Below are positions 1 to 46,272 of a DNA stretch of 64,000 nt, one piece after another. The DNA comes from Candidatus Obscuribacterales bacterium (GTDB taxonomy: Bacteria > Cyanobacteriota > Vampirovibrionia > Obscuribacterales > Obscuribacteraceae): NCBI GenBank assembly GCA_020050835.1, contig JAGVKB010000067.1, positions 1-64,000 of the forward strand. The letters are read 5' to 3'. Made by a program: the position numbers and the translations under genes. The notes below the pieces were generated by a model. The model searched no databases. It saw nothing but the letters and a program-made list of their open reading frames with translations, and was not told where the DNA came from. Position 1 is the first letter of the stretch, and every line of letters starts with the position of its first letter.

Positions 1-3000
1 CGTGATGTTCGCGGACATCGACTTGATAAAGAGCGAGGCTGAACTTGAAGTTGCATAGACACCCAGAGCCTGCACGTTCGCGTTGACAGTTATTGCAGCT
101 GCAAGCTCTGCTGCAATAGAGCTAAGCGTGTCCCCCGATTGCACGGTATAGCTGACCGCTTCTTGCCCGCCGGATAACGCGCTGTCGTGTACGGTTATCG
201 TCAGAATGTCTCCTGCTGTAACGCTTCCACCCACACGTGCCGTCTGCGATGTGGTCTTCTGCACGGCTGCACGATTCGAGGCGACATCATAGTTGTAGTA
301 ATACTGGCTCCCAAAAGGTCGCTGAACAGACCCGGAGCCTACTTGATCGGCAATCAACTGGCCAGCCAGATCGTATCCGAGGTTGTGAAACTGATTGTCT
401 CCATTTTGTTGCTGTTGCCAATTCGTGATCTCTCCAGCCGGGTTGTAGGCATAGTTGAATTGAGATAAGACCGCACCACTGGGGTTGAGATTGCTTATCT
501 GCATGAGGCGTTGATCGCCCATGTTGGGATAGTAGCTGTAATTGGTAGTCTGGCTGTTGGGGTAGGCAATAGAGGCAAGCCTAGTCGTCCCCTTGGAAGA
601 GCCAGGAGTATCGTCAACATATGCGTAGTTGAAGGTTCCGAGCGAGTTCTGTTCGGAAGTGATCCGGCTCATGGCATCGAAAGTCCAGGCAATAGAATTA
701 TTGCCGCCGTTGATCATGCGCTTGCTCGTCCGTCCCAATGCATCGTAGCTGTAACAGATTGGCGAATTCGAAATGACCGAGTTTGTCACTTGTGCCAACC
801 GTCCGCCACCACCCGCAGTCGCTGTAGTACTGCCAGTGCCAGTTGGATTTACTGAGACTGTGCTTCCTGCTGAGACTGTTATCATCGTGCCATTAGCAGT
901 GGCAGAGATTCCAGCTGCGCTCAATGTTGAGTTGCTGGTTATCGCAGTGGCAAGATGAGTTGCTACAAGTGCAGGCTGTCCGGCATCGCCTGACAGAACC
1001 GAATATGTTGGCATCGTGTATTGCCCACCACTTAGCGAGGAGTTTGTAAAGGTAATGCTAATGGTGTCGGTGGCGTTGGGTGTTTGTGGATAACCGCCGA
1101 TCCAGATGTAGGCTTTGTTAGTAAGGGTGGTGGCATAAGGATTATAACTGTTCGCAATCAGTCCCCAGCCGTTTGTTGTGCGCTTAGTCCTCGGGAATAG
1201 TGGATCATAGGCAATGGTTACCGGAGATGTAGCGTTCACGGCATTTGTGTAGCTTTTCTGCATCAATGTATCGTCGATGTTGTAAACAAAATGAGTTACC
1301 TGGCTCAACGCATCAGTCTCTGATTGCAGGCGTGGTGAATAGGGCACATAGACGTAGTTTATGCTGGTCTGATCGGCATAGACCTTTTCTATTATCCGAC
1401 CTTGAATGTCATGGTGCCATGATGTAGTCTGATTCTTCGGGTCGGTCAACGATGCCAGCGACCCGCAGCTGCACCAGCAATATTTTGTTTTCCTTCCTAA
1501 AGGGTCGGTTTCACAGACGAGTTGATCCATGGAGTTAAAGGAACGTTGCGTCCAACGACCGAGACGGTCTGAACTCATCACCGCATCTAGCCTTTCATAA
1601 ATCGTTTGCTCGGATGTGCCGTCCGGATAAGAGATCGAGGTACGTCGGTTGAGATCGTCGTAAGAATATGTCCGCGTGTATCCTTCCGAGTCAGTCTCTG
1701 TATTGACCAACCCGTAACCATAGAATGTAAAAGTGGTCACGTCCTGGCTGCCGGACAAAGGACCATCAACCTGAGTAAGATAGCCATTACTGTCATAGCT
1801 TCGGGTAGTTGTGTTGCCGTTGGCATCAGTTGTGGTTGTGAGCTCGGCGAATGGAGTGTTATATGCATACTGTGTTTGTTGCGCCGAGCCGTCGATGTAG
1901 AGAGTGACCCTATGCGGTGCCGAGGGATTGCCGTACTCCCAGTGACCGATCAAGAAATTGTCTGATACCTTTGTCTCGCGAACCTCCAACAGATCTATAT
2001 TGTTGGCAGCATATGTATAGGTGAACTGCCGGCCAATTGGGTCAATCGATTGCGTCATGTACCCCAATGTATTTCGCTGATAGTTCCAGGCTTGAACGAT
2101 GCCGTTTGTTGTGACGGCCAGGGTGATAGTTGTCGTAGCACCCATACTGGTTGATTTGGTGTACGTTGTCGTGTTTGGCGAATCGGATTTGATACTTACT
2201 ATGGGGCCTATTATGCCGTTCGGTCCAGTCCAGACAGCGCTCACAGAGATGCCTTGCAGCTGGGTATTGGCATTAATGGCCATTGCCAGCTCTTGCGCAA
2301 TTGTGGAAAGCGTGTCGCCTGTCTGAACGGTGTAACTGATTGCCTGCTGTCCGCCGGAAAGGCCTGAGTCAATAACGGTGATGGTAAGGACATTGCCGGC
2401 AGTTACACTCCCGCCCAGAGTTGCAGTTTCTGCTGGATTAGGACCGGCTGCGATAGTGATGGTTGCCGTGGGGCTACCTACAGGAGCCGATGCATACGCA
2501 GTAGAATTGATAGACCAAGACGTCAAAGTGATGACATTTGAGGCAGCAGCCGCACTGATTCCGAATGTAGAGATATACACGTCGGCATTGATTTTTGCTG
2601 CCAGACCGGCTGCGATGCTGGCTAAGGTATCGCCAGTCTGTACTGTGTACTGCACGGTTTCAGGAGGACCGATGAGCGCATCTGTGACCCTAATGCCAAC
2701 GATATTTCCCGGTGTAGCTGTTCCAGTAATTGTGGCAGTTGAGCGAAAGCCGCACCACTGTCGAGCGACTTGAGTGGGCTTATTGCTCGTGCCTACGAAA
2801 TTCTGCACTGATTCGCCCGGATAAGTGGTAACTACCGGGGACTCCAGGGGATTCCTGGACCAATTACCGACAGGCGCCTCAGAGTTTGTGGCAGATGCAA
2901 AAAGCCACCTGGTTGTTTTGCAGTGCTGATAGTTGTGGCTCGCAGGATCTGTAGGGTAAAGAGCTGTCGCTTCACGGTCCCAATAATATGTCGCCTTCTG

Positions 3001-5118
3001 CTCGCCTATCCAATTCTCAATCACGGCACTGCTTCCATCGGGATAAGTCACTCTCAGCCCCACGGGTGGATTGGCGCCGCCGCCGGACGGTGTGTACTTA
3101 TAGAAAGATGTAGACCCGTAGGGCGTGGTTAGCATGCTGATGAAAGTAGAGCTTGTGTCGTAGAAGAATTGAGACACATTGCCGGCAGCATCCGTAGTGG
3201 AAATCAATTTTGTAGTTGTCGAATCGTATGCGAAAGAAGCCGAGCGGCTAAAACCATCAGTAATACTGGCAACTTTATAAAAACCCACATTCCCTGGCGT
3301 GTTGGAAACGTATGCAAATGTGGTCGGCGAGTTGCTGCAAGCGTCGGTGACACCTGTGATTCGGTAGTTTGCATCGTAGGAAATTGTAGCCGCATTTCCT
3401 TGCGGATCCACAACCGACGTTAGATAAGTGTTGGTGCCGTCTGACAACGTAAAGTTTTCCACAGTGCCGTCCGGCCATTTCCGCTGGTAGGCACCTCCAC
3501 CCAGGTTAGCCATCAGGCATTGGGATGTTAGATTTGGAGTGGTGGCATACGGAAAGTTATATTTCTCGTATCCACCACCACGGACCCTGACTGTGACATT
3601 GTTTGAGCCATCGACTGTTAAGTAAGAAACCCAGTTGATATTCCAGTCGTAGCCAATGTTTGTAAAGGTGAACGTACCCGGCTGATTCCCCTGATTGAAG
3701 TTGTACTTGATTTCGATCTGCATGTCTGGCCCTGCCGGAGGTGTGTATCCAACCGGGTTGTCGGAAATGCCAAGGGAAGCATTCATACTAAATGCGGAAG
3801 CGGTGGCCATGCCGCAGGTAGGCCCGTCACCACCACCACCACCACCACTGCCACCACCATTTCCTCCACCGCCACCACCGCCACCACCGCCAGAGAGCTG
3901 TTGTTGCGGGCATGAACTCGTCATTGTGGGGTCTCTGGTAGTTGCCATTCCTTTGCCCCAGACCTTCTCGGCTTCCTCCTGACTTACGCTTTTCCAGCCA
4001 GGGAGGTGCTTCCCAGCTGGGATGAGGAAGTATCCATCGGATTGAGATTCGACAGCTTTCTTACTAACCCATAGGCTACCGGCTTCGTCAAATGTCGGAT
4101 CCTCTATTCGGTAACGGCCACTTTCTTCTGCGGTAATCGCGCCGAAGTGCCCGACTTTCCAATGCATGACGGCTGGTACGATGATTGCAGCCCCTGGCGA
4201 GCGCTTTGCTATCTGCAGTTTAAGACCTACCTGTCGAGACCAGTCTTGCAGCTGAGCAAGATTAGTTCCATGATTTGTAGAGGCTGCTGTTCTGATTGTC
4301 TCCCATACTTCAATAGGATGTTGTGGTGAGCTGAGTTTGGCAAGTGTATTGACTGCAAACGGCCCGCACTTAAATGCTATCTCCGGATGGTGAGTCATCG
4401 ACCAGAGCCCATCACGGGCTATCTTGACTCTTGCGTCCACTGATCCTGTAAGAGTTCTCCGACCGAGTTCGGCAAGGTGCTTCTTGAGACTGTTCATGAG
4501 GCCAAGCCGTGCTTCCAACATGAGCAAATGAGAGACTGCCTGATCGGCTACAGCCTTTCTATCAGGGCGTGTCTGAAATCTTGAGCTTTCCCAGGCAGAC
4601 TGCCAATATTCGAGCGCATTGGTAAGGTAGCCGGTCTCGAAGCACTGCTGCCCTAGATTTGCTTCCAGAGCAAGGCGCCAGCGCGACTTCGGATGCGCGG
4701 ACAAGAATGAGGTCAAGGCGGAGAAATCCTCGGGATCTTTTCGATTCTTGAATGCAAGTAATGCTTGCGCTAGCGCTCGATTTTCCGCGGGCACGACTCT
4801 GTCGTCCATCGGGACGAGTGGCTCAAAGAAAATACGCGAGTTGAAGATTTCTAGATCGGTGGGATTGTTTGTAAAGACCGTTGCCCGAACGACTGGCTTT
4901 GTCAACTCCGTCGGGCTCGGCCTGGTAAACGGTTTTGCTGAGTGGCGCTTGGATGTACCGGCGGTCTTACCTGTCCGGGAATGGGGCTGATTATTGGTTG
5001 CCGGCGTTGCCGCCATTGCCATAGGAGCAGGACCGGCAGTTATGATGAGCGATAAAATGATCACCCACGTGAAGGCGCGGTACAAATTGATATAAGCCAG
5101 TCTCTGGAGATATGTCAT
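1..5118 (-). CDS. Giant YD/RHS-repeat protein with N-terminal C39-like peptidase domain (C-terminus off the window)
   Basis: The reading frame is open from an ATG at 5118 to base 1 (1706 codons, no stop), so the C-terminus lies outside the window. An N-terminal hydrophobic stretch suggests export. Residues about 245-365 look like a C39/papain-like peptidase domain: Cys251 in KCGPFA, His324 in VGHFGAI and Asp340 in EDPTF form a plausible triad. A glycine-rich linker follows (about residues 409-429). The rest consists of YD/RHS-type repeats (for example TRTYSYDDLNRRTS) interrupted by four related inserted modules containing a LysM-like phrase (YTVQTGDTL). RHS proteins usually form a shell around a C-terminal toxin or act as large surface polymers; the missing C-terminus would tell which. 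It starts 21 nt after the stop of the gene at 5140, so the two are probably co-transcribed. Confidence 0.85.
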   Translation of the reverse strand, partial: MTYLQRLAYINLYRAFTWVIILSLIITAGPAPMAMAATPATNNQPHSRTGKTAGTSKRHSAKPFTRPSPTELTKPVVRATVFTNNPTDLEIFNSRIFFEPLVPMDDRVVPAENRALAQALLAFKNRKDPEDFSALTSFLSAHPKSRWRLALEANLGQQCFETGYLTNALEYWQSAWESSRFQTRPDRKAVADQAVSHLLMLEARLGLMNSLKKHLAELGRRTLTGSVDARVKIARDGLWSMTHHPEIAFKCGPFAVNTLAKLSSPQHPIEVWETIRTAASTNHGTNLAQLQDWSRQVGLKLQIAKRSPGAAIIVPAVMHWKVGHFGAITAEESGRYRIEDPTFDEAGSLWVSKKAVESQSDGYFLIPAGKHLPGWKSVSQEEAEKVWGKGMATTRDPTMTSSCPQQQLSGGGGGGGGGGNGGGSGGGGGGDGPTCGMATASAFSMNASLGISDNPVGYTPPAGPDMQIEIKYNFNQGNQPGTFTFTNIGYDWNINWVSYLTVDGSNNVTVRVRGGGYEKYNFPYATTPNLTSQCLMANLGGGAYQRKWPDGTVENFTLSDGTNTYLTSVVDPQGNAATISYDANYRITGVTDACSNSPTTFAYVSNTPGNVGFYKVASITDGFSRSASFAYDSTTTKLISTTDAAGNVSQFFYDTSSTFISMLTTPYGSTSFYKYTPSGGGANPPVGLRVTYPDGSSAVIENWIGEQKATYYWDREATALYPTDPASHNYQHCKTTRWLFASATNSEAPVGNWSRNPLESPVVTTYPGESVQNFVGTSNKPTQVARQWCGFRSTATITGTATPGNIVGIRVTDALIGPPETVQYTVQTGDTLASIAAGLAAKINADVYISTFGISAAAASNVITLTSWSINSTAYASAPVGSPTATITIAAGPNPAETATLGGSVTAGNVLTITVIDSGLSGGQQAISYTVQTGDTLSTIAQELAMAINANTQLQGISVSAVWTGPNGIIGPIVSIKSDSPNTTTYTKSTSMGATTTITLAVTTNGIVQAWNYQRNTLGYMTQSIDPIGRQFTYTYAANNIDLLEVRETKVSDNFLIGHWEYGNPSAPHRVTLYIDGSAQQTQYAYNTPFAELTTTTDANGNTTTRSYDSNGYLTQVDGPLSGSQDVTTFTFYGYGLVNTETDSEGYTRTYSYDDLNRRTSISYPDGTSEQTIYERLDAVMSSDRLGRWTQRSFNSMDQLVCETDPLGRKTKYCWCSCGSLASLTDPKNQTTSWHHDIQGRIIEKVYADQTSINYVYVPYSPRLQSETDALSQVTHFVYNIDDTLMQKSYTNAVNATSPVTIAYDPLFPRTKRTTNGWGLIANSYNPYATTLTNKAYIWIGGYPQTPNATDTISITFTNSSLSGGQYTMPTYSVLSGDAGQPALVATHLATAITSNSTLSAAGISATANGTMITVSAGSTVSVNPTGTGSTTATAGGGGRLAQVTNSVISNSPICYSYDALGRTSKRMINGGNNSIAWTFDAMSRITSEQNSLGTFNYAYVDDTPGSSKGTTRLASIAYPNSQTTNYSYYPNMGDQRLMQISNLNPSGAVLSQFNYAYNPAGEITNWQQQQNGDNQFHNLGYDLAGQLIADQVGSGSVQRPFGSQYYYNYDVASNRAAVQKTTSQTARVGGSVTAGDILTITVHDSALSGGQEAVSYTVQSGDTLSSIAAELAAAITVNANVQALGVYATSSSASLFIKSMSANIT

Positions 5119-10659: not shown

Positions 10660-11007
10660 ATGAACAATCAACTTACGGTAGTCGGACATGTAGGACAAGC
10701 GCCAAAGGTCATCTCTTTCCCAAGCGGAAAGTCTCTGGTGAAGTTTTCAGTGGCGGTGAAGGAGTATGCTAGTGCAAACGAAGAGCCAACGACACAATGG
10801 TTTGATGTCGATGCCTGGAGTGGGATCGGCGAGCGGGTGCTCAAGACAATCACTAGAGGACGCGAGGTATTGGTTACCGGACGCTGTATCCTCGAGACCT
10901 ATACAAGTAAGGAGGACTCTAATCACACCGTAACCAAGCCGGTCATTAGGTTGTTGAGTTTCCATCTCGTAGGCAAAAAGCCGCAGGATTCTAACAGGGA
11001 GTCTTAG
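10660..11007 (+). CDS. Accessory single-stranded DNA-binding protein (element-encoded)
   Basis: A 115-residue OB-fold SSB. The N-terminus (NQLTVVGHVGQAPKV), the strand KSLVKFSVAVKEY, and the core WFDVDAWSGIGERVLKTI with REVLVTGR match the SSB family. It lacks the acidic tail ending in a proline-phenylalanine pair that recruits replication partners; the housekeeping copy at 52741 has that tail. GGAGG is well placed before the ATG. Such accessory SSBs are common on conjugative and mobilisable elements, where they protect transferred single strands, and the nearby relaxase supports this. A very strong hairpin follows. Confidence 0.85.
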   Translation: MNNQLTVVGHVGQAPKVISFPSGKSLVKFSVAVKEYASANEEPTTQWFDVDAWSGIGERVLKTITRGREVLVTGRCILETYTSKEDSNHTVTKPVIRLLSFHLVGKKPQDSNRES

Positions 11008-13899: not shown

Positions 13900-15018
13900 A
13901 TGAACATGATTTTTGAGTTCCTTCGAGAACGGGATGAAGAAGCAAAACGCGGCGGTGGTGAATCTGCTAGTCCCAGGACTGGCCGTGGAAGGCAACAGAA
14001 GCTTACTGGCGGCAAAGGGAAATCTGGCAGCTCCGGTAGGAAGAGATATCAGACCGACTCCAGAATCAACACTGTAGTTAAGTCCTCGTATGTTCGGCGA
14101 TCTAAGTATTCTGATCGCAAGCTACGACGACAAGTAATTTATCTAGAACATCGGGAGCGTGCTGAAGGCGAATCTCCTAGAGTCTTCTTTGACAGGGAGC
14201 ACAATGCGGTTGATTCGCAGAAGGTGCTTGACAGACTCATGGAACATCAAGGAGAAGAGGTTGCGTTTCACAAGCTCATCTTGTCGCCTGGTGACAATGA
14301 CACTAACCTCAAGAACTATACTCGCGATGTTATGAACAGTCTGGAGAAGTCTCTCCGCTGTGATCTTGTTTGGGTTGGTGAGGAGCACCGGCATACTGAT
14401 CACTATCATGTACATGTTTTGCTGGCCGGAAAGATTCCAGAACAAGAACGACATTTACTTTCTTCGTATCTAGAAGGACGTGATGTCCATCTTGAGAAGG
14501 AGGATTTTGATATCGCTCGGCAAGCCGGCAATGAGTTCCTTGCACGCGAGCGCGGACTTCAGCGCGATTTGGACCGATTGGCTGAAAGGGTCTTAGATCA
14601 TCCAGAGTTATACGATCGCTTGCTGGAAGACTATCTCGGATTACCCAGCAAGTGGGAAGACTACAAGCGCGCTGAGGAAATTGGTCTGGGAACCAGCAAA
14701 GCTGATCGGGAGCTCATCAAAGAGTTCCAGACGGAACGAGACTGGGGACTTGATGCTATCGTTCGAGAAATACGCGAACGCTTCTATCGGGAGTCAAGTG
14801 GGAGCCAGGGCTCGAAGAGTCTGGAGTCTGATTCCTGGCCCGGGTCTGAACCTCAACACGAACATGAACGCGAGCAGCGACGGGAACACGATGACCTTAG
14901 TGACGTCATGTTCGACATGGCCCATGAACAGGCCGACAGTCCCAAGAATGAGCGGACAGATTCCTCCCGCGATGAGCGGTCAAAGAGAAGAGACGACAAT
15001 GAGAGAGGCGAACAGTAG
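13900..15018 (+). CDS. Relaxase, VirD2/DUF3363-like (MOBP-type)
   Basis: A 372-residue protein. The metal-binding histidine motif is clear at residues 163-172 (HRHTDHYHVHV followed by LLAG), preceded by FHKLILSPGD and TRDVMNSLEKSLRCDLVWV. This order matches the VirD2/DUF3363 relaxases, which cleave oriT and stay covalently bound to the DNA end. By alignment in memory, Tyr81 (VIYLEHRE) is the likely catalytic tyrosine. The N-terminal 60 residues are basic and low-complexity; the C-terminus is charged and likely disordered. It is shorter than typical DUF3363 proteins. Its TAG stop overlaps the GTG start of the next gene by one base. Confidence 0.8.
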   Translation: MNMIFEFLRERDEEAKRGGGESASPRTGRGRQQKLTGGKGKSGSSGRKRYQTDSRINTVVKSSYVRRSKYSDRKLRRQVIYLEHRERAEGESPRVFFDREHNAVDSQKVLDRLMEHQGEEVAFHKLILSPGDNDTNLKNYTRDVMNSLEKSLRCDLVWVGEEHRHTDHYHVHVLLAGKIPEQERHLLSSYLEGRDVHLEKEDFDIARQAGNEFLARERGLQRDLDRLAERVLDHPELYDRLLEDYLGLPSKWEDYKRAEEIGLGTSKADRELIKEFQTERDWGLDAIVREIRERFYRESSGSQGSKSLESDSWPGSEPQHEHEREQRREHDDLSDVMFDMAHEQADSPKNERTDSSRDERSKRRDDNERGEQ

Positions 15019-16664: not shown

Positions 16665-18719
16665 ATGGCTAGAAGCGCTGCAAGTGTAAGCAGAGTCTTG
16701 CCGGTAACGGAAGAGGCATTTCTTGAAATCGGAGTTGTTGTTCTAAGAGGACTCCAGTATGTAATCGATGACAGCAATGACAGGCTCCAGCAAATCTCAG
16801 CCAACTGTTCTCATTCAGAGCAGCACGGGCGGGACATGTGGCGATATCGATTTAATGCTCAAATGAGCTGGAGACGAGTCGACCAAGGCTTAGAGATTAC
16901 TGTGTCGATAACAGAGTCGCAATCACCCACGCAAATCAACGAGTGTAAAAGGAGATGTGAAGAGATTTGTTCTGCCTTAGAGGCTGCAGTAGAGCAAGTG
17001 AATCAGCGGAGCCAAAGTGAGTGTCCCAGGACAACAAATGGCAGTGCAGCTTGGGCAACGAGAGACGAGCTAATTGCCGCTGGTTATCTTCCCGATGTCA
17101 CTGCCGACTTTGCCGATCGATCTGGTCGCTTCCTGGTTGGACGGGTCGGTGATACTGACCTGCTGATTACTGAAGAGCACACGCACCGCCATGTCCTCAT
17201 CTGTGGTCCGACCGGCTGCGGGAAATCCAGTGGGATTTTCATTCCCAATCTAATTGAAAGGCTTGGAACTTCCGCGATTGTTACTGAAGCTACAGCAGGG
17301 AGTGTTATTCCAAATTTGTACAAGAACACTGCCGGATGGCGAGCGCTATCCGGCCAGGAGATCTTCTACTTCAATCAAAATGACCCGGCTAGCACCAGAA
17401 TGAATCCGCTAGATATGGTTCAGTCTTTCGATGATGCCATTCACATTGCCAATCTCATTGTCTTGAACAGCACGTTACCGAACAATGTGGCAGATCAAAT
17501 CTGGCAACAATCAGAGACGCATCTGCTTACAGCACTTATCTGGCATACCTGTGGAGAACGACGAGGCAAGGACCTGGCCTGCGAAGGAGACAACGCCAAT
17601 CTTGGATTCATTAGGCGACTTCTAAGACTAGGCCCGCAAGGAATCGGCGCTCAGTTGACTTCAAGTAAGCGCGAACTGGCAAGACTTGAGTACTTTGCTT
17701 TCCTGAAGAACACGAGTCCTAATTTCCGATTTGGAGTTGTCTCTGGTCTAATGCAGCGATTGAATCTCTGGACAAGTCCAAAGGTTCAAGCTCTTACTGC
17801 AGTAACAGATTTCTGTCCCAGCGATTTGGGAAGGAAATTGTTCACCTTCTATCTTGCAACTTCAATTCACCGCCCGGAGGACAAGCCGCTGGCTGCCTTA
17901 ATGTTCAATTTCGTGCTGGATCTAGTTCTCCAGCAGGAGTTCGAGCATCCGTTGACCTTATTGCTCGATGAGTTCGCAAACTACGGCTATATCCCCGCAT
18001 TCCCTGACAAGTTGACTGTAATTCGAAATCGAAAGATTGGAGTTGTTCTGGGAATTCAGGATTTTGTGCAGCTAAAGAAAGTTTATCGGGAGGACGATGC
18101 AAAGCTATTGTTTACGCAGCCTGGCACAAGGATCTTCTTTAGACCGCAGGATAGCTTTACTGCTCAGAGAATCAGTCTCGATCTCGGCTACTCCACTCTC
18201 TACACGCGTAAGGTAAACAGTCGGGGACATGTCGATGAACGAGAACAGCCAAGACTGCTCTTAGATTCTTCGGAGGTCATCCGGCTGCCTCAAGACAAGA
18301 TCATCGTCTTTCTTCCGGCTACGAACCCGGTAGTAGCAACGAAGTTCCACTGGAAAGATCATCTGGAGGCAACGCAAGTCAGTCCTCCCGATCGACCCGA
18401 ACAGCCGACTGAGGCTGTTGGCGACTCATTCGTTGAGCCCGAGAGCTTCCAAAGTCCTGACCAGAAGCCCGAAACAGAAATGGAGGTCCCAGACAATGGT
18501 ACTTCACCAGATTCTGGAGACAAGAAGACGGCATCCGACAAGACCGTTCGCAGCAAAGCACCGCCAACACCTGAGTCTCCATGGCATGACCAGCAAGATG
18601 ACTCTGGTGTCGATGGCTCTTCTGACTGGACAGATGACGAATTAGTCCAGTACGAATCTGAAATCAGCCACTCTTGGACTTCTGACGATTGGCCCGAAGG
18701 TCATCCGAGTAGCCAATAA
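16665..18719 (+). CDS. Type IV coupling protein (VirD4/TraG family)
   Basis: A 684-residue ATPase. Walker A is GPTGCGKSS at residues 181-189, Walker B is LTLLLDEFANYG near 430, and downstream TQPGTRIFFRPQDSFTAQRIS and the QPRLLLDSSEVIRLP region match the TraM-recognition part of TraG/VirD4 proteins. These hexameric motors pass relaxase-DNA to a type IV secretion pore. The usual N-terminal membrane helices are absent; instead there is a 120-residue soluble N-domain. The last 120 residues are acidic and disordered. No VirB4 or other pore gene is present in the window, so the element is mobilisable rather than self-transmissible on this evidence. Confidence 0.88.
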   Translation: MARSAASVSRVLPVTEEAFLEIGVVVLRGLQYVIDDSNDRLQQISANCSHSEQHGRDMWRYRFNAQMSWRRVDQGLEITVSITESQSPTQINECKRRCEEICSALEAAVEQVNQRSQSECPRTTNGSAAWATRDELIAAGYLPDVTADFADRSGRFLVGRVGDTDLLITEEHTHRHVLICGPTGCGKSSGIFIPNLIERLGTSAIVTEATAGSVIPNLYKNTAGWRALSGQEIFYFNQNDPASTRMNPLDMVQSFDDAIHIANLIVLNSTLPNNVADQIWQQSETHLLTALIWHTCGERRGKDLACEGDNANLGFIRRLLRLGPQGIGAQLTSSKRELARLEYFAFLKNTSPNFRFGVVSGLMQRLNLWTSPKVQALTAVTDFCPSDLGRKLFTFYLATSIHRPEDKPLAALMFNFVLDLVLQQEFEHPLTLLLDEFANYGYIPAFPDKLTVIRNRKIGVVLGIQDFVQLKKVYREDDAKLLFTQPGTRIFFRPQDSFTAQRISLDLGYSTLYTRKVNSRGHVDEREQPRLLLDSSEVIRLPQDKIIVFLPATNPVVATKFHWKDHLEATQVSPPDRPEQPTEAVGDSFVEPESFQSPDQKPETEMEVPDNGTSPDSGDKKTASDKTVRSKAPPTPESPWHDQQDDSGVDGSSDWTDDELVQYESEISHSWTSDDWPEGHPSSQ

Positions 18720-19400: not shown

Positions 19401-19582
19401 TTTGCGGATGTTTTCTCGGCATGATGTTGAATAGATTCCATCATGCACTCTAGATGTCTATTGTGAGTTGGTTCGTAACCAATCACAAATTCAACTCAAA
19501 CCAGTGCTGCGCCTGAGCCGGAACTATGTTGCCGCGCAATTGGCCAGTACTGAAACAAATGATTCAAAACAAGGACACTATC

Positions 19583-19804
19583 ATGTCAGAGCATATTCAA
19601 AACGCAGGATTTTTCAACATGTTTCAATCTGATCTCTTATCTCGCCGCCAAGCCGCCGCTTATCTCGGTGTCTCTGAGCAGACTCTCGCAATATGGAAGT
19701 GCTGCGGGCGGTATCAGTTGCCTCTTGTGAAGATTGGGCGGTTGGTGAAGTACAAGAAGGCGGACTTGGATGCCTTCATTTCACGTAGGACTATAGCTGG
19801 ATAA
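19583..19804 (+). CDS. Excisionase-like helix-turn-helix protein
   Basis: A 73-residue protein. ATG 19583 is chosen over an upstream in-frame ATG at 19526 because of the AAGGA nearby and because the domain needs nothing before it. Residues 18-68 fit the MerR/Xis-type winged helix (HTH_17): LSRRQAAAYLGVSEQTLAIW, KIGRLVKYKKADLDAFI. Such proteins act as recombination directionality factors or plasmid regulators. An attachment-site-like region lies 1 kb downstream, but no integrase is visible. A clear terminator follows. Confidence 0.75.
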   Translation: MSEHIQNAGFFNMFQSDLLSRRQAAAYLGVSEQTLAIWKCCGRYQLPLVKIGRLVKYKKADLDAFISRRTIAG

Positions 19805-20827: not shown

Positions 20828-20848
20828 ATGGGCCGCCGATGGGCCGCC
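20828..20848. repeat. 11-bp tandem repeat, left arm of attP-like site
   Basis: ATGGGCCGCC occurs twice with an 11-bp period. Together with the similar pair at 21111-21132 it flanks the tRNA-Arg fragment, as arm-type integrase sites flank a core site. Confidence 0.55.
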
Positions 20849-20880
20849 AACCCAATTTTACTCTCTCCAAAAATCAAAAA

Positions 20881-20916
20881 CCATCGGCTGAAATGCCGAT
20901 GGTCTAAGGGTTTTTT
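20881..20916 (+). terminator. Intrinsic terminator next to the tRNA fragment
   Basis: CCATCGGC (20881-20888) pairs with GCCGATGG (20895-20902); six T residues follow at 20911-20916 after an 8-nt spacer. Confidence 0.7.
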
Positions 20917-20920
20917 CATT

Positions 20921-20962
20921 CCTGCCCGGCAAGACTCGAACTTGCGACCTCATGGTTCGTAG
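20921..20962 (-). other. tRNA-Arg(ACG) 3'-half fragment (attachment-site core)
   Basis: Read on the minus strand, the sequence starts at the anticodon loop (CTACGAA), continues with the 3' side of the anticodon stem (CCATG), the variable loop, a complete T arm (GCAAG-TTCGAGT-CTTGC) and the 3' acceptor strand CGGGCAG plus discriminator. The 5' half is absent: the bases before the loop do not pair with CCATG and no D arm follows. Similarity stopping exactly at the anticodon loop is the usual signature of a tyrosine-integrase core site. Confidence 0.75.
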
Positions 20963-21110
20963 CGCAATCATCGTCCGTATCCTTCCATATGTCCAATATT
21001 TACCGAACATAGGTTGACATTGCCAGCAACCCATCTATGTCAAACACGATACCAGCAATGGTGCCGGTCCTTGTCTATTTGTTTTTGAAACTTCCCGGAA
21101 ATTCCTGCCT

Positions 21111-21132
21111 ATTAGGCCACCATTAGGCCACC
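21111..21132. repeat. 11-bp tandem repeat, right arm of attP-like site
   Basis: ATTAGGCCACC occurs twice back to back. It resembles the left pair (GGCCGCC versus GGCCACC) and has the same 11-bp period and orientation. Confidence 0.55.
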
Positions 21133-21159: not shown

Positions 21160-21232
21160 AGCGGGCGAGGAGTCTCGAACTCCCGACCTACAGCTTGGGA
21201 AGCTGTCGCTCTACCAACTGAGCTACACCCGC
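21160..21232 (-). tRNA. tRNA-Gly (anticodon CCC)
   Basis: On the minus strand the cloverleaf is complete: acceptor GCGGGTG with CGCCCGC, D arm GTAGCTCAGTTGGTAGAGC, anticodon stem ACAGC/GCTGT around loop TTCCCAA, and T arm GGGAG-TTCGAGA-CTCCT (one mismatch at the last position). The 3' CCA is not encoded. It marks the border between the accessory left part and the core genes to the right. Confidence 0.95.
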
Positions 21233-45255: not shown

Positions 45256-46272
45256 ATGCGCGAGTCAAAGACAACTGATAAAACTCCTTCTGCCAATGAT
45301 GCCCTGGTCAGAAAGAGTGCCGAACGAAAGAGTAATCCGAAGCCCCCCGGCCAACGCCGAAGGAATCTCATTCTGCGGCAAACAATGGAGGCTTATCTCG
45401 AGCATGTGACCAAAGAGCGCGGACTCTCCGAAAACACAATCACGGCATATGCCACCGACATTCGTGGATTTGTGGACTGGCTACCGGCGGAAACGATTGA
45501 GCCGGCTCGTCATCAAATTGTGCTCTATCTGGCTCACTTGAAAAGCCGGGGTCAGAAAGCGAGTTCGGTGGCTCGTACACTGTCTAGCCTGCGCGGCTGG
45601 TTTGTCTGGCAAAAGGAGAGCCGGCGCCTGGCAAGCGACCCCTGCGAGACAATGCAGAACCCTCAGACTCAAAAGCGCCTGCCACAAGTCCTGACAGTCA
45701 GCGAAGTAACGGCGATTCTGACGGCAGCCAGCAAGAAACGGGACCGAGCGATCGTCGAGCTTCTTTATGGCTCCGGGCTGAGAGTTTCAGAACTGGCCGG
45801 TCTCAATCGATTCGACATCAACTTCTCACAAGGACAATTACGATGCACCGGCAAGGGTTCCAAGGAACGGATCGTACCGGTCGGACGGCATGCGATCCAA
45901 GCCTTGAATGAGTATTTAGGGCAGTTGCCAGCCGAGCAATCCAACCGTTTACCACAAGACGGTTTTAGCAGACGGCGCACTCGCAGGGTAGACCCATTGT
46001 TCGTTGACCGCCAGGGTAAACGTTTGAGTCGACTGGTAATCTGGCAGATAGTCAAAAGATTGGCTCGCCAAGCAAGTATTAGCAAGAAGTTGTCACCACA
46101 CACATTGAGACATAGCTTTGCCACGCATTTGCTGGAAAATGGCGCAGATCTTAGAACAGTCCAAGAGCTGCTCGGACATTCCAATGTTGTGACGACTCAG
46201 TTGTACACTCATCTCAGCCGGCAGCACCTGCGTTCAGCCTATCAACGAGCTCAAGAAAAATTCAATCGATAG
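45256..46272 (+). CDS. xerC: Tyrosine recombinase, XerC/XerD type
   Basis: A 338-residue protein with a 40-residue basic N-terminal extension, the SAM-like core-binding domain (EAYLEHVTKERGLSENTITAYATDI in two helices) and the catalytic domain. Active residues: Arg176 (GLRVSEL), Lys203 (GKGSKER), His282 and Arg285 (PHTLRHSFATH), His308 (LLGHS) and Tyr317 (QLYTH). Length and core context favour a housekeeping chromosome-dimer recombinase rather than an element integrase. I cannot decide between XerC and XerD. Confidence 0.88.
   Translation: MRESKTTDKTPSANDALVRKSAERKSNPKPPGQRRRNLILRQTMEAYLEHVTKERGLSENTITAYATDIRGFVDWLPAETIEPARHQIVLYLAHLKSRGQKASSVARTLSSLRGWFVWQKESRRLASDPCETMQNPQTQKRLPQVLTVSEVTAILTAASKKRDRAIVELLYGSGLRVSELAGLNRFDINFSQGQLRCTGKGSKERIVPVGRHAIQALNEYLGQLPAEQSNRLPQDGFSRRRTRRVDPLFVDRQGKRLSRLVIWQIVKRLARQASISKKLSPHTLRHSFATHLLENGADLRTVQELLGHSNVVTTQLYTHLSRQHLRSAYQRAQEKFNR

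Follow-up and report, generated by a model that had tools for sequence, protein, structure and literature searches.

Back-to-back tRNA-Gly and tRNA-Arg half-sites in an integrated element of a Candidatus Obscuribacterales bacterium: a probable record of a change of target gene

In the 7.0-Mb genome (154 contigs) of a Candidatus Obscuribacterales bacterium, the 3′ half of a tRNA-Arg gene lies close to an intact tRNA-Gly gene, with a pair of short tandem repeats on either side of the fragment. The stretch of DNA analysed here, referred to as the window, comprises the first 64 kb (64,000 nucleotides) of contig C87 (94,920 bp). The original prediction regarded the fragment and its flanking repeats as a core with both arms, and hence as the layout of one attP. 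The locus therefore raises the question of whether the two repeat pairs serve one attachment site or two and, if two, how a tRNA-Arg half-site came to lie just inside the end of an element integrated in a different tRNA gene. Below, relatives are given by genome handle (G) and contigs by C; contigs cited alone belong to the genome of the window (G000). The features of the site are as follows.

21160-21232, minus strand: tRNA-Gly(CCC), intact, the current target (ARAGORN and Rfam)
21111-21132, minus strand: P′ arm of the tRNA-Gly element, GGTGGCCTAAT twice, 27 nt beyond tRNA-Gly (motif match to the P arm on C64)
20963-21110, no strand: spacer of 148 bp, in which a dozen or so arm-side bases resemble tRNA-Gly-type sites
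20921-20962, minus strand: tRNA-Arg(ACG) 3′ half, the putative fossil core and right half of an old attachment site (genome comparison)
20865-20902, minus strand: predicted intrinsic terminator 3′ of the Arg half, between the core and the left arms (fold -22.2 kcal/mol, z -4.0)
20828-20848, minus strand: P′ arm of the old tRNA-Arg site, GGCGGCCCAT twice at a period of 11 (spacing and arm matches in relatives)

Much of the original local reading has held up. On the minus strand, from 20962 to 20921, the Arg 3′ half reads CTACGAACCATGAGGTCGCAAGTTCGAGTCTTGCCGGGCAGG; it opens with the first base of the anticodon loop (7 nt) and closes with the discriminator, and comparison within the genome confirms these predicted limits. 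Further copies of the core, which the prediction had proposed to look for, are present at C101:21576-21618 and C19:34212-34255 (100% identity over 43-44 bp), as is an intact tRNA-Arg(ACG) at C4:89922-89995 (88% identity). The P′ arm beside this intact gene belongs to yet another element, which has its integrase and P arm on C101. The neighbouring tRNA-Gly is indeed intact, and the 11-bp-period repeats are found on either side of the core as described: on the forward strand, the left pair is ATGGGCCGCC at 20828-20837 and 20839-20848 (10 bp, period 11), and the right pair is ATTAGGCCACC at 21111-21121 and 21122-21132. A 10/10 tandem of period 11 within a search zone of 91 positions occurs at 0.3% of random window places, so that the two tandems are not attributable to chance. 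The view of the locus as attachment-site DNA with a tRNA-Arg core, equivalent to neither a plain attL nor a plain attR, also stands. The fragment had further been said to point the wrong way, which is correct for an attR, but its orientation is right for the element-side half of an attL or attP because the island lies 3′ of the fragment.

To assign the left arms, Arg(ACG) 3′ halves were sampled across the family Ca. Obscuribacteraceae. Wherever an integrase adjoins such a fragment on the 5′ side (15 of 15 cases), a P arm, in the form of an 11-bp tandem matching at 8-10/10 positions, lies on that side at 138-173 bp from the core; the P′ arms of Arg sites are 11-bp tandems placed mostly 71-76 bp beyond it. 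The left arms of the window lie 75 nt past the Arg core by the count used in the scan, within the P′ range, and near-identical P′ arms are present at the Arg cores of G002:C236 and G015:C126. The entire block of core, terminator and P′ arm is conserved, with copies in G015 and G020 aligning at 76-78%. The motif GGYGGCCCAT is found only as a P′ arm beside Arg cores, in three genomes, and no P arm with this motif was found in 50 genomes. Likewise, no Arg P arm, Arg integrase or Arg 5′ half was found at the site or in the element. On these spacings and matches, the inner half (Arg 3′ half, terminator and GGCGGCCCAT arms) is shown to be, at the level of sequence, the right half of a tRNA-Arg site without its partners.

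Several other properties of Arg sites emerged in the family. In 50 genomes, the T stem differs among Arg 3′ halves, with changes matched on both sides (GCAAG/CTTGC, TACG/CGTA, GGGAG/CTCTC and CATG/CATG), which suggests that the elements bring working tRNA ends and overwrite those of the host. Some Arg elements bring defence genes, situated directly inward of the P′ arm; these are BrxC and PglX (BREX) in G021:C74 (locus L181), and a DpdE/DrmD-like helicase with a type IIG-like methyltransferase in G024:C2 (L175). Orphan Arg(ACG) 3′ halves, mostly with a P′ arm and with neither P arm nor integrase, are present in G015 (C126, C222, C239, C43 and C60), G024 (C6 and C2), G014 (C91), G037 (C175), G021 (C74) and G000 (C22). 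Their frequent neighbours are toxin-antitoxin-like, nucleotidyltransferase or ATPase genes, and they resemble small units that lack an integrase and have tRNA fragments as their ends (spacings of about 1.0, 2.5 and 3.1 kb).

The right arms lead to a different system, and to a second contig. An RHS-repeat gene runs off the start of C87 and its 3′ part opens C64 in matching sense, with a short stretch missing as judged against the internal repeats of the gene; the split gene would place window position 1 next to C64, within one tRNA-Gly element of ~26 kb. C87 and C106 end in the same 99 bp (a k-mer branch), and this shared graph branch accounts for the contig break. We infer the join across a short gap that no contig spans, with the split RHS gene and the k-mer branch in support. 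The end of C106 (L256) carries a transposase-like gene, IS66-type by eye, which probably represents an insertion into the RHS gene that some members of the population carry. The main genes of the element are listed below.

19526-19804, plus strand: excisionase-like HTH protein (HTH_17; TIGR01764 just below cut-off)
16665-18719, plus strand: VirD4-type coupling protein (PF02534, E 2e-50)
13900-15018, plus strand: relaxase-like mobilisation protein (MobL below cut-off; RlxS N-terminal match, E 5e-13)
10660-11007, plus strand: single-strand binding protein (PF00436)
1-5118, minus strand: RHS-repeat gene, 5′ part, cut by the start of the contig (3′ part at the beginning of C64)
C64:3713-4981: tyrosine integrase with arm-binding domain, tRNA-Gly type (PF13356 and PF00589)

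With this join, the element reads, from end to end, tRNA-Gly, Arg half-site, excisionase-like gene, coupling protein, relaxase-like gene, single-strand binding protein, sigma factor and RHS gene, followed by a 363-aa gene, the tRNA-Gly integrase, a P arm and a tRNA-Gly fragment. Integrative and mobilisable elements (IMEs) have a relaxase and a coupling protein but no complete type IV secretion system; here the match to the coupling protein is clear and that to the relaxase is weak. From this gene content it is a putatively mobilisable element, integrated in tRNA-Gly(CCC). The integrase on C64:1-5178 is the only one in the element. The original prediction had named an intact tRNA-Arg with an integrase at this far end as the finding that would speak against it; the integrase that is there is of the tRNA-Gly type. 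Its statement that the window holds no integrase is right for element-type enzymes, though a XerC/XerD-type tyrosine recombinase, of housekeeping type and distant from the site, is encoded at 45256-46272. The excisionase-like gene was considered as a marker of Arg ancestry and dropped, as it has homologues in both Arg and Val elements; for this reason the body of the element is assignable to neither Arg nor Gly ancestry.

The second tRNA-Gly 3′ end, proposed as a check, is a 47-bp, 100% identical fragment at C64:5178-5224. About 120 bp 5′ of it lies GGTGGCCTAAC GGTGGCCTAAT, followed by the integrase gene; this P arm (C64:5032-5054) adjoins the integrase and has the same motif as the right arms of the window, so that the GGTGGCCTAA arm family is paired across C87 and C64. 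The same P/P′ pair is found in G002, with P on C157 beside a Gly fragment and P′ on C36. In G016 the right-arm motif occupies the same position relative to tRNA-Gly, and in G002 it is decayed there; an 11-bp tandem repeat ~22-30 nt past tRNA-Gly is present in G016, G002, G003, G010, G020 and G027. This pairing shows the outer half, tRNA-Gly with its GGTGGCCTAAT arms, to be the predicted working end of a tRNA-Gly(CCC) element. Farther out, on C64:5249-31056, a second element has its P′ arm (CTGGTACCACT twice) 25 bp beyond the Gly fragment, and this arm pair appears to mark another element in tandem accretion at tRNA-Gly.

Could the two repeat pairs nevertheless form a true attP, with ATTAGGCCACC as P arm and ATGGGCCGCC as P′ arm of one integrase around the Arg core, brought in by another route? 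The spacings would allow it: the Gly arms lie 170 bp from the Arg core, start to start, near the 138-173 bp of P arms and so open to being misread as an Arg P arm, and both pairs fall within the P and P′ ranges. The right and left motifs also agree at ~7/10 positions. However, in elements where both arms were seen, P and P′ agree closely, mostly at 9-10/10 positions, whereas the pairs of the window differ at ~3/10; this difference points to a junction of two P′ half-sites from two systems. Moreover, the right arms match the arm at the tRNA-Gly integrase end almost exactly, lie 27 nt past tRNA-Gly, where the P′ arm is also found in relatives, and have tRNA-Gly and host genes beside them rather than an integrase, and the element holds no Arg integrase. 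Because the repeat pairs come from different attachment systems, the reading of arms and core as one attP fails, and we regard it as very improbable; of the options in the original prediction, it is the composite that is borne out.

We consider it reasonably probable that the element swapped its tRNA target by exchange of its integration module, and that the old Arg half-site was kept as a fossil; the two half-sites, a live Gly and a leftover Arg one set back to back, would then record a change of target gene. Either the element itself or an ancestor from which its left end derives would formerly have used tRNA-Arg. A tRNA-Gly module, consisting of integrase and attP, would have been gained in place of the old integrase and P arm, while the old Arg core and P′ arm were retained. 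The junction itself may have been made by an Arg-type integrase that fused a circular Arg element with a Gly element, within the spacer of the latter, the Arg integrase being deleted thereafter. Such a fusion is suggested because the break falls exactly at the edge of the anticodon loop, which is the strand-exchange point in all Arg elements examined here. Fusion at similar arm repeats was rejected as a general account, a Val case in G015 being spaced differently (about 104 bp). The 148-bp spacer has no second copy in the genome and no homologue in the relatives, which are related at family level, so that an empty-site comparison failed. Within it, at ~21,005-21,025 on the minus strand, the sequence ATGTCAACCTATGTTC includes twelve bases, CAACCTATGTTC, that match a Val-type arm on C94, TGTTCAACCTATGTTCAAC; these may be the decayed arm of a further element, or a chance match. 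On C94, C71 and C90 of the same genome, three integrases each face an identical tRNA-Val(TAC) 3′ half, with tRNA-Val intact on C94 and with C94 and C71 beginning inside the repeat, and these contigs appear to form a tandem array at tRNA-Val.

The layout recurs. When tRNA loci, chosen non-randomly, were searched for the 3′ half of a different tRNA downstream, two complete cases were found on single contigs of G016, another species. C574 of that genome (9.1 kb) carries tRNA-Arg(CCT), its P′ arm, a Gly fragment that likewise has a P′ arm to itself, the element body, an integrase, the matching P arm and an Arg(CCT) fragment; C138 (3.8 kb) has the same complete layout with tRNA-Arg(TCG) and a Gly fragment. 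Both have one integrase, whose P arm matches the outer P′ arm, which shows that the inner half-site there has no integrase to itself. Other loci hold tRNA-Pro followed by a Val fragment (G039:C44), tRNA-Val followed by a truncated and decayed Arg fragment (G015:C222, found by eye) and, in the genome of the window, tRNA-Leu with an Arg fragment and no arm (C22). The boundaries of these fossils lie at the anticodon loop or within about 2 bp of it. A foreign tRNA half was present at 4/26 loci with arms vs 1/46 without (p 0.05, in a non-random sample); since the loci were chosen non-randomly, recurrence is supported and frequency is not, and the random-window control was contaminated because the loci had been picked for att sites. 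In the first 1.5 kb of G039:C44 (L161 / L288), which holds the tRNA-Pro with a P′ arm and the decayed Val fragment, another decayed tRNA-like fragment with arms GGAGGCCTAATGGCGGCCC is found ~0.9 kb beyond the Val fragment, and is a possible third layer.

The recurrence bears on the suggestion in the original prediction that the site is mis-joined, for instance by an assembly chimera at the 43-bp Arg repeat. This is a metagenome assembly, and contigs of the family often end at these cores. A mis-join at the repeat would, however, leave the odd left junction, where spacer meets core, unexplained, and the identical layout on single contigs of G016 makes mis-assembly unlikely as a general cause. 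A chimera is accordingly given very little credence.

A more serious alternative to the target switch is that an integrase-less Arg unit was inserted by an Arg integrase acting in trans, landing by chance 148 bp within the tRNA-Gly element and bearing no recognisable mark at the other end. Arg fragments without integrase or P arm exist elsewhere, and such a unit could give the same left junction with no change of target: ten orphan fragments lack a P arm and a 5′-side integrase, nearly all of them have a P′ arm, and in G024:C6 an integrase-less unit of ~1.0 kb lies directly at an intact tRNA-Arg. Against this, Gly and Val fossils hold the same position beside other tRNAs, the two complete fossil cases are elements with a single integrase, and 26 of the 28 integrase loci still face a tRNA fragment, from which ectopic insertion looks rare. 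We judge insertion of an Arg unit unlikely here, yet it and the target switch may both operate. Integration of a complete Arg element at a secondary site was rejected: it predicts an integrase and P arm facing non-tRNA DNA, in contrast to the 26 loci just mentioned, and neither an Arg integrase nor a GGYGGCCCAT P arm was found for the element. A CIME origin of the Arg half-site, which would call for an attL and an attR of one target with no integrase, was likewise rejected, as the element stretches of C87 and C64 contain a single Arg half-site and no further Arg core.

The Arg half-site might also still be usable, allowing the element to use, or be captured at, a second tRNA target whenever a co-resident element supplies an Arg integrase. 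Neither its core nor its P′ arm is damaged, and two other Arg sites in the genome have an identical core, so that it is possibly alive; we nonetheless hold this to be rather improbable. If it were true, layered half-sites would be a regular route between tRNA genes for these elements.

A target switch with a fossil half-site has partial parallels in known systems. Exchange of integration modules with changed specificity is established for ICEs and IMEs (PMC4701971, on streptococcal ICEs), including work on the ICESt1 family (Burrus et al., 2002, as cited in PMC4701971). As here, related elements have unrelated integrases and altered integration specificity; according to that paper, the data mostly leave the precise events unrevealed, whereas in the present element the old core and P′ arm still lie beside the new site and indicate which target came first. 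CIMEs and accretion leave att half-sites after loss of integrase genes, and tandem arrays at one target gene (PMC5704250). Half-sites remaining without integrase genes are common to both situations, but in accretion neighbouring half-sites share a target, and here there are two tRNA genes and one element. The tRNA islands mapped by Islander have a regenerated tRNA at one end and a displaced 3′ fragment at the other (PMC4383910); the tRNA-Gly element has both of these features and, unlike those islands, an additional fragment, from a foreign tRNA, immediately inward of the regenerated end. In mainly open-access literature, we found neither an account of a former tRNA target surviving as a fossil half-site beside the one now in use nor any paper dealing with the mobile elements of Obscuribacterales. 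Module exchange is thus known; what is unusual is that a fossil half-site has been kept, with exact boundaries.

Fossil half-sites may mislead island-mapping software by providing false ends. They are also searchable, as a tRNA followed by a P′ arm and then by the 3′ half of a different tRNA, and the position of the breakpoint at the edge of strand exchange makes the mechanism testable. Finally, a change of target in integrative elements is usually guessed from mismatched trees, and fossil half-sites such as the putative tRNA-Arg one described here show the order of targets directly.
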